A stretch of DNA of 64,000 bases. Source: Lysobacter changpingensis (GTDB lineage Bacteria > Pseudomonadota > Gammaproteobacteria > Xanthomonadales > Xanthomonadaceae). Location: contig NZ_JADWPE010000003.1 in NCBI RefSeq assembly GCF_017308985.1, forward strand, positions 248,001 to 312,000. Direction: 5' to 3'. Numbering within the stretch: position 1 is the first letter of the stretch; each line of letters begins with the position of its first letter. This document shows, one piece after another, positions 34,731 through 36,812 of this stretch. The notes under the pieces are model-generated. The model was not told the origin of the DNA, did not search any database, and worked only from the letters and a program-made list of their open reading frames with translations. The position numbers and the translations under genes were made by a program.

Positions 34731-35258
34731 TCACACCACCGTCAGCGCGCCGTCGTTGATGGTGACCATCGAGCCGGCCAGCACGATGCTCGCGCCGCGT
34801 CCGTTGCTGATGGTGATGCCGGCGTCGTTCACCGCGAGCGATGCGCCGCTCTGCGAACGCAGCAGCACGCCGCCGTCGGGCCCGGGGAGATCGGACACGG
34901 TCAGCGCATTGCGTCCCGGCGTCTGCAGCACCAGCGCCGGCGCGACCGCGTGCCCGGCCTGCGCCAGCGATGGCAGTTCGGCGGCGTCGACCCAGTAACC
35001 GCCGACCCAGATCGGCAGTTCGGCGTCGCCCTGCTCGAATTCCACCCACACCGGCGCGCCCACCGGCGGCAGCAGGAACAGTCCGCTCTGGTGGCCGGCC
35101 ACCGGCACGCACGGCATCGCCCAGCGCCCGTCGCCGTCGAACACCTGCGGAACCTGCACCAGCACGCGCCCCAGTTGCAGGGGATCGATGTTGTCCATCA
35201 CCACGCCGCGGTGCTTGCCGAAATGGCGTTGCGGCGCGGGCTTGCTCGTCTGCGGCAT
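34731..35258 (-). CDS. phage baseplate assembly protein V-like (spike, gp5 OB-fold)
   Basis: A 175-residue protein. The N-terminal half is the gpV/gp5 OB-fold: KHRGVVMDNIDPLQLGRVLVQVPQVF and AGHQSGLFLLPPVGAPVWVEFEQGDAELPIWVGGYW are hallmark strings of this fold. The C-terminal half (about 115-175) is a beta-helix-like repeat (LTVSD, VLLRSQSGASLAV, GITISNGRGASIVL) that would form the trimeric needle. It is followed by the PAAR-like gene one base on. Start ATG 35258. An orphan spike pair: possibly a remnant, or a loose cargo or spike module for a system encoded elsewhere. Confidence 0.82.
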   Translation of the reverse strand: MPQTSKPAPQRHFGKHRGVVMDNIDPLQLGRVLVQVPQVFDGDGRWAMPCVPVAGHQSGLFLLPPVGAPVWVEFEQGDAELPIWVGGYWVDAAELPSLAQAGHAVAPALVLQTPGRNALTVSDLPGPDGGVLLRSQSGASLAVNDAGITISNGRGASIVLAGSMVTINDGALTVV

Positions 35259-35352
35259 CGTCGGTTCCCTGGGCCAGGCCCCTCTGGATTTCGAACGTGA
35301 ACGGCCACCGCCGCAGGCCACGATCCGGCCGGCGCGCCGCTCGTCGGAACAT

Positions 35353-35368
35353 TCAACCTGATGGTTGA
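35353..35368. promoter_or_regulatory. ArsR operator, upstream copy
   Basis: TCAACC-TGAT-GGTTGA is an inverted repeat, centred exactly 40 bp upstream of the second copy at 35391-35410. The identical half-sites and a spacing close to four helical turns suggest cooperative binding by the adjacent ArsR protein. Confidence 0.65.
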
Positions 35369-35390
35369 CAATCGGCACCGCGATGTCGAT

Positions 35391-35410
35391 ATTCAACCAC
35401 ATGGTTGAAT
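35391..35410. promoter_or_regulatory. ArsR operator covering the arsR start codon
   Basis: ATTCAACC-ACAT-GGTTGAAT is a perfect 8-bp inverted repeat. The ATG at 35401 lies in its centre, so the first residues of the regulator (MVE) are encoded by the operator. This implies repression at the start of its own gene. Confidence 0.7.
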
Positions 35411-35808
35411 CACACTCCGATCGCCTCGACGCGGTGTTCCGCGCCCTCGCCGACCCCACCCGCCGCGCGATGGTGCGCGATCTCTCGCACCGGCCGCGCA
35501 GCGTGGGCGAGCTCGCGCAGCCGTTCGAGATCTCGCTGGCCGCCGCGTCCAAGCACATCAAGGTGCTCGAAGGCGCGGGCCTGGTGCAGCGCGAGGTGCA
35601 GGGCCGCACGCACGTGTGCCGGCTCGACGCGCGCCCGCTGCATGCCGGCATGGAATGGATGCGTCATTACGAGCGGTTCTGGAACCAGCGCCTGGACGCG
35701 CTCGAATCGCTGCTGCGGGCCGAGGATCGCGAGAACGCCGCGCGCGGGAAGCCGCCGCGGAAGGCCGCGACGATCAAGCCCGGCCGCCCGGACCGGAGCA
35801 GGCGATGA
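35401..35808 (+). CDS. ArsR-family winged-helix regulator
   Basis: A 135-residue regulator from ATG 35401 (an in-frame ATG at 35383 is possible). The helix-turn-helix region reads LDAVFRALADPTRRAMVRDLSHRPRSVGELAQPFEISLAAASKHIKVLEGAGLVQREV, typical of the ArsR subgroup paired with SRPBCC (AHSA1) genes. It lacks the metal-binding Cys pair of arsenic sensors. The start codon lies within a perfect operator, and a second copy sits 40 bp upstream, so it should be autorepressed. The downstream SRPBCC gene begins in an ATGA overlap. Confidence 0.93.
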   Translation: MVESHSDRLDAVFRALADPTRRAMVRDLSHRPRSVGELAQPFEISLAAASKHIKVLEGAGLVQREVQGRTHVCRLDARPLHAGMEWMRHYERFWNQRLDALESLLRAEDRENAARGKPPRKAATIKPGRPDRSRR

Positions 35809-36812
35809 GTTCCGTCGCCGTGCGCGTGAACCGTCGTTTCGAGGCATCCGCCGAGCGCGTGTTCGACGCGTGGCTCGATCCGGCCACGCTCGGCCGCTGG
35901 CTGTACGCGACGCAGGGCGGACAGATGCTACGCATGGACGTCGATCCGCGCGTCGGCGGCGCATACGCGATCGTCGAACGTCGTCCGGATGGCGATGCCG
36001 CGCATTACGGCCGCTATCTCGAGATCGATCGCCCGCGCCGGCTGGTGCTGACGCTCGCGCTCGATCCGCAGGCACGGGGCGACCGCATCACCGTGGACAT
36101 CGAACCCGACGGGGACGGCTGCCGGCTCACCCTCACCCACGAAATGGCGCCCGAATACGCGCCCTACGCCGATCGCACCGAACGGGGCTGGACCACGATC
36201 CTCGCCTCGCTCGCGCGCCATCTCGAACACCCGTTCTCGAACACCCGTTCCCCACGCGAAGGAGCAGCACCCATGAACGACTTCGGCATCGTCACCGCGC
36301 CCGACACCCTGCGCATCGAACGCCTGCTACCCGGCCCGATCGAGCGCGTATGGGCCTACCTCACCGAATCGGAGAAACGCGGCACCTGGCTCGCGCGCGG
36401 CGAAATGGACCTGCGTCCCGGCGGCGCGGTCGAGCTGGTCTTCCACAACGACCGCCTGACCGAGAACGATGCCGCGCCACCGCCGAAGTACGCGAAATAC
36501 GGTGGGGAAATCCAGTCGCATGGGCACGTGATCGAATGCGATCCGCCGCGCCTGCTGGTGTTCACCTGGGGCGAGGACAACGGCAGCGATTCGCGCGTGC
36601 GCATGGAACTCACGCCACGCGGCGACGAAGTGCAGCTGGTGCTCACGCACAGCCGCCTGGCCAGCCGCGAAGGCATGGTCGATGTCGCCGGTGGCTGGCA
36701 CACGCACCTGGGCATCCTGGCCGACCGCCTTGCGGGACGCACGCCGGCGGGCTTCTGGGCCACGCTCGGACCGGTGAATGCCGAGTACGAGAAGCGCATT
36801 CCGGCGACGTGA
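35805..36812 (+). CDS. tandem SRPBCC (AHSA1-like) protein, two domains in one frame
   Basis: A 335-residue protein made of two complete SRPBCC/AHSA1 domains. Domain 1 (residues 1-145) begins VRVNRRFEASAERVFDAWLDP and ends around GWTTILASLARHLE. Domain 2 (about 165-330) begins IERLLPGPIERVWAYLTESEKRGTW and ends VAGGWHTHLGILADRL. The START-like fold binds hydrophobic ligands. Between them lie a ribosome site (GAAGGAG) and an in-frame ATG at 36273, as expected for two separate genes, and a 14-bp tandem repeat at 36222-36249. With three repeat copies the first domain would end at a TGA overlapping that ATG; with the two copies present the genes are fused. Internal initiation at 36273 may also make domain 2 alone. 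Reported as one CDS because no stop intervenes. Confidence 0.88.
   Translation: MSSVAVRVNRRFEASAERVFDAWLDPATLGRWLYATQGGQMLRMDVDPRVGGAYAIVERRPDGDAAHYGRYLEIDRPRRLVLTLALDPQARGDRITVDIEPDGDGCRLTLTHEMAPEYAPYADRTERGWTTILASLARHLEHPFSNTRSPREGAAPMNDFGIVTAPDTLRIERLLPGPIERVWAYLTESEKRGTWLARGEMDLRPGGAVELVFHNDRLTENDAAPPPKYAKYGGEIQSHGHVIECDPPRLLVFTWGEDNGSDSRVRMELTPRGDEVQLVLTHSRLASREGMVDVAGGWHTHLGILADRLAGRTPAGFWATLGPVNAEYEKRIPAT
36222..36249 (+). repeat. 14-bp perfect tandem repeat at the SRPBCC domain junction
   Basis: CTCGAACACCCGTT occurs twice in a row inside the coding sequence. Fourteen is not a multiple of three, so any change in copy number shifts the reading frame. One more copy would end domain 1 at TGA 36274-36276, in an ATGA overlap with the domain 2 start; one fewer sends it into a long alternative frame. 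Confidence 0.85.

Follow-up and report, generated by a model that had tools for sequence, protein, structure and literature searches.

A 14-bp tandem duplication as the probable origin of a lineage-specific fusion of two SRPBCC genes behind arsR

In the genome of a bacterium of the family Lysobacteraceae (G000), two copies of a 14-bp sequence lie within a single open reading frame that encodes two SRPBCC domains. Does this repeat work as a length-variable switch between one fused and two separate proteins, as the initial annotation proposed, or does it record the event by which two genes became one? We analyzed the locus within its window, by which we mean the whole 64-kb stretch of DNA under analysis, and compared it with relatives sampled at one genome per species. 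In our judgment the locus is very probably a lineage-specific gene fusion, best read as fixed, that arose through one 14-bp duplication; the comparison points to genome evolution of an ordinary sort and away from a switch. The features at the joint are the following.

35805–36812, plus strand: fused gene of 335 aa with two AHSA1/SRPBCC domains (open frame, Pfam)
36222–36235, plus strand: repeat copy 1, CTCGAACACCCGTT (sequence, TRF, frame computation)
36236–36249, plus strand: repeat copy 2, identical to copy 1, CTCGAACACCCGTT (sequence, TRF, frame computation)
36257–36259, plus strand: putative vestige of the ancestral gene 1 stop, CGA where the relatives G002 and G003 carry an in-frame TGA; out of frame here (spacer alignment, frame computation)
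36259–36264, plus strand: AAGGAG, predicted ribosome-binding site of domain 2, inside the fused frame (sequence; also in G002, G003 and the relative G006)
36273–36812, plus strand: domain 2, the former gene 2, with its own ATG, 179 aa (separate gene in relatives; match to 2k5g)

The repeat and the reading frames

The two copies are perfect and lie between the two SRPBCC domains, as first described: TRF calls an array at 36221–36250 with a period of 14, 2.1 copies and a 100% match, and Pfam places a domain on either side. The array is the sole perfect tandem repeat in the 64-kb window (period 7–60, at least two full copies, at least 16 matching bases). A chance origin was rejected, as 200 first-order Markov simulations of the window give an expectation of 0.01 such repeats per 64 kb against the one observed. 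The array starts at codon 140, at the end of the first AHSA1/SRPBCC domain and ahead of the ATG of the second. PF08327 (AHSA1) matches the whole 335-aa protein in two stretches with 156.3 bits (curated cut-off 22.1, E 5.3e-46), and the best stretch of the first domain covers residues 14–141. Among solved structures, 1z94 matches domain 1 (E 1e-10) and 2k5g matches domain 2 (E 4.6e-50); their chains are shorter (147 and 191 residues, respectively) and carry only the names of hypothetical or uncharacterized proteins. An AlphaFold2 model from the single sequence has a mean pLDDT of 46.7, too poor to interpret.

Varying the copy number in silico confirms the frame arithmetic proposed at the outset. 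With one copy, domain 1 leads into a 506-codon wrong frame; with two, the domains are fused in 335 aa; with three, domain 1 stops at a TGA that overlaps the ATG of domain 2 as ATGA. The repeat thus does decide fusion in this sequence, and removal of one copy breaks the fused frame, the length change not being divisible by 3. Between zero and five copies the outcome cycles every three copies, and zero copies also give the ATGA joint. Gene 2 begins with ATGA, so this joint appears at any spacer length equal to 2 modulo 3, and we rejected it as a signature special to three copies. The same type of overlap couples arsR to domain 1 at 35805–35808, again in agreement with the initial annotation. Domain 2 has likewise kept the ribosome site ascribed to it, the AAGGAG, with a gap of 8 nt to its ATG. 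With this site and the start codon of gene 2 both still there, ribosomes probably go on initiating internally, so that the fusion and some free domain 2 are probably both made.

The joint in relatives

A relative of the fused protein is present in all 12 genomes of the genus, G000 included. Seven of these (G001, G002, G003, G004, G006, G007 and G010) have gene 1 and gene 2 side by side as separate genes, four (G005, G008, G009 and G011) have no gene 1 ahead of gene 2, and only G000 has the fused state. The 28-base double repeat was found in none of the 11 other genus genomes at up to three mismatches, which disposes of the possibility that all relatives share two copies and a fused protein. 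The expectation that close homologues would be separate genes with an ATGA overlap held in part: seven are separate, and the overlap occurs only in G006 and G007.

The spacer from the end of domain 1 to the ATG of gene 2 measures 34 nt in G002 and G003, 35 nt in G006 and G007, and 48 nt in the window, which is 34 + 14; taking out one copy leaves 34 nt. Aligned without gaps, the window minus one copy matches G002 at 95 of 112 positions and G003 at 92 of 112, with a poor match over the 11 nt at which the spacer starts. The TGA that closes gene 1 in G002 and G003 lies 16 nt ahead of gene 2 and is part of ACGTGAAGGAG, which corresponds to ACGCGAAGGAG in the window. The base that differs is the third position of a codon in the fused frame (CGT to CGC, both Arg), and the change is silent there, so the old stop would have been free to drift after the duplication. 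With one copy and the T restored at the old stop, the computed gene 1 has 146 aa and ends at –16. With two copies and the same T the product is still the 335-aa fusion, and the duplication alone therefore suffices for fusion.

The joint also carries a run of C, four bases in the window, five in G002 and G003 and six in G006. The additional C in G006 (locus L070), compared with the C5 of G002 and G003 (L068 and L069), moves the end of gene 1 from the TGA 16 nt upstream to the ATGA overlap; tiny indels have thus shifted the joint elsewhere in the clade too. A tree of ArsR and domain 2 places G000 in one group with G002, G003 and G006, and G008/G009 and G007 fall outside; the support of this group is 91/90, under the program's 95/80 mark.

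Some of the genomes that lack gene 1 have possible remnants of it. In G008 and G009 (L072 and L073), about 100 nt lie between arsR and gene 2, with a gene 1-like beginning and end flanking an internal deletion, which suggests that gene 1 may have been lost outright. In G011 (L075) only a few bases resemble the beginning of gene 1.

We estimated substitution rates between G000 and its three sister genomes, G002, G003 and G006. The values are dN 0.10–0.13 and dS 0.47–0.65 for domain 1, dN 0.09 and dS 0.37–0.50 for domain 2, and dN 0.08–0.09 and dS 0.47–0.49 for arsR. These estimates, which average over the time before the fusion as well, show purifying selection on domain 1 at the protein level. 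Its dN is higher for G000 (0.10–0.13) than among the sisters themselves (0.06–0.08), and arsR and domain 2 have the same tendency (0.08–0.09 for G000 compared with 0.04–0.06 among the sisters).

Origin of the fusion

Fusion by an indel at a gene joint implies that relatives have separate adjacent homologues, and these are found in seven of the 11 other genus genomes. It also implies that a length change not divisible by 3 caused the fused frame, and the spacer would have gone from 34 to 48 nt. In the ancestor, arsR would have been followed by SRPBCC gene 1 and then SRPBCC gene 2, the spacer of 34 nt holding one 14-mer and the TGA that ended gene 1, 16 nt ahead of gene 2. One 14-bp tandem duplication, presumably by replication slippage, would then have shifted the frame by +2, upon which translation would pass the TGA out of frame and enter gene 2 in frame, yielding one 335-aa protein. 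The idle stop would have changed afterwards from TGA to CGA, silently. Gene 2 would have retained its ribosome site and ATG, and the mRNA probably yields the fusion plus some free domain 2. Either of the two 14-mers could be the new one, and the fact that they are identical gives no more than a rough date for the duplication (divergence at most 0.19, 95% upper bound).

Sister spacers have the length of the window minus one copy and no genus relative has the repeat, and an ancestor with one copy, not three, is most likely for this reason. The initial annotation had also considered a recent deletion of one of three copies, that is, an ancestor with an ATGA joint. Three copies do give ATGA, and ATGA joints exist in two genus relatives, but those of G006 and G007 arise from 35-nt spacers without the repeat, and no genus relative has even two copies at up to three mismatches. 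We rejected this reading on the spacer lengths and the absence of the repeat in genus relatives, and regard it as extremely improbable. Two other histories are conceivable: loss of the stop before the duplication, or an ancestor of the 35-nt ATGA type (as in G006 and G007) together with a compensating loss of 1 nt. Had the TGA of gene 1 become CGA before the 14 bp were duplicated, with the duplication rescuing a run-on protein, only the order of events would set that history apart from the favored one. Both changes are indeed present, but this order requires a period in which a 506-codon run-on overlapped gene 2; the reverse order requires none, with the stop change being silent. We infer that the duplication came first and consider the stop-first order quite unlikely.

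An error in sequencing or assembly, with a different true length and separate genes, is unlikely. A spacer shorter by one base (47 nt, 2 modulo 3) would give an ATGA joint like those of G006 and G007, and no other of the 12 genus genomes is fused. Assembly collapse is improbable for a 30-bp array, which is shorter than ordinary reads. The C run has just four bases, below the five, five and six of G002, G003 and G006, and the disappearance of the old TGA is consistent with a fused frame that is real.

A reversible copy-number switch, a contingency locus alternating between fused and separate proteins, would draw on two facts: a change in length does alter the frame as claimed, and domain 2 has its own start in all copy states. 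There are only two copies, and their absence from all 11 other genus genomes departs from what is usual, if not strict, for phase-variable loci, where the repeat is kept in related species. Loss of a unit would also be expected to restore an alternative product; contraction to one copy here leads to the 506-codon wrong frame and no longer to separate genes because the old stop is gone (TGA to CGA), and it is the gain of one copy that would give separate genes. With a two-unit repeat in one of 12 genomes and a run-on upon contraction, the anatomy is therefore unlike that of a maintained switch. SRPBCC proteins are presumed to be cytoplasmic, a weak point against a switch if set beside the environment-exposed location of most phase-variable proteins. 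That location is given in a survey that treats translational coupling and phase variation along with frame transitions between neighboring prokaryotic genes (PMC3711429), where DNA-modification and metabolic genes are named as well. The proposal of a length-variable switch thus gained no positive evidence; we infer that no switching is ongoing and hold a switch to be highly improbable. A related reading has one gene with two products, the two-domain protein and free domain 2, in which a rare extra copy would restore ATGA-coupled separate genes; as a whole it is very unlikely. Across the genus the joint of gene 1 and gene 2 is fluid, taking the form of an upstream stop, an ATGA overlap, a fusion or the loss of gene 1, which argues against a regulatory switch in any one state.

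Gene fusion by a small indel is of a kind already in print. In Mycobacterium, neighboring ORFs have been fused by indels of repeat units, with gmhA-gmhB and Rv0192A-Rv0192 given as examples in PMC1501019. There, as at the present locus, two neighbors are fused by a frameshift that comes from a minor change in length. In both of those examples a mononucleotide run changes by one base, compared with one 14-bp duplication here. The cases in PMC3711429 are similar in their overlapping start/stop joints, tandem repeats near the frame change and homologues fused in another genome. To call phase variation, that survey combines repeats with genes that have a prior link to it, and no such link is shown for the genes studied here. 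A search of the literature collection used here found no paper on this arsR-SRPBCC operon. The locus shows cleanly how one small step can fuse two genes: what happened, the joint as it stood in the ancestor and the altered stop are all legible in the DNA.

The wider family and the arsR region

In the family, genus included, 104 of 395 sampled genomes match the protein at E ≤ 1e-30. We read 80 loci from 80 of these, the other 24 having a match to domain 1 only or weaker matches to domain 2. Gene 1 stands upstream of gene 2 in 28 of the 80 loci, separate in 26 and fused in two (G000 and G024); 51 have only arsR and gene 2, and one has gene 2 only. Gene 1 was recognized by tblastn at E ≤ 1e-3 in these counts, a threshold that very divergent copies could escape. 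In two of the 26 separate loci (G164 and G309), gene 1 ends about 500 nt ahead of gene 2. Among loci L001–L019, both genes occur only at L001; L002–L017 have domain 2 with no preceding gene 1, their weak domain 1 matches falling on domain 2, and at L018 and L019 there is a domain 1 relative but no domain 2. A class-wide search (369 genomes, E ≤ 1e-40) added no fusion, the only matches being G000 and, by its domain 2 part, G666.

The second fused locus, in another genus of the family (G024, L079:1508–2506), also has arsR followed by these two domains, in an order identical to that of G000. Unlike G000, it joins them through only a few linker residues and lacks both the repeat and an ATG at the joint; the fusion is independent of that in G000. 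It supports the view that such fused proteins are tolerated.

The region ahead of the fused gene contains the following features.

35401–35808, plus strand: arsR-type regulator, likely start ATG 35401 (MVESHSD...), its TGA overlapping the next ATG as ATGA (Pfam, NF033788, start alignment)
35351–35369, plus strand: inverted repeat ATTCAACC-N3-GGTTGAC, possible ArsR operator 1, overlapping the TTGACA –35 element at 35365–35370 (upstream alignment, promoter scan; role proposed)
35391–35409, plus strand: inverted repeat ATTCAACC-N3-GGTTGAA, possible operator 2, over the end of the –10 element and the arsR ATG (upstream alignment, promoter scan; role proposed)

The arsR product matches Pfam HTH_20/HTH_5 and scores 75.2 bits against NF033788 (cut-off 55). 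At its start, ATGGTTGA is found in all 15 aligned genomes, G000 included, and all 15 have TTGACA upstream of arsR. The promoter scan predicts TTGACA-17-GATATT with the transcription start on or beside the arsR ATG, and this position suggests that the arsR mRNA may be leaderless; it may also be self-repressed. The two ATTCAACC-N3-GGTTGA inverted repeats lie 40 bp apart (35351–35409), and both are exact in seven of the 15 aligned genomes, including G000. Divergently upstream of arsR, at 34731–35258 on the minus strand, lies a gene for a Phage_base_V protein (phage baseplate/type VI OB domain).
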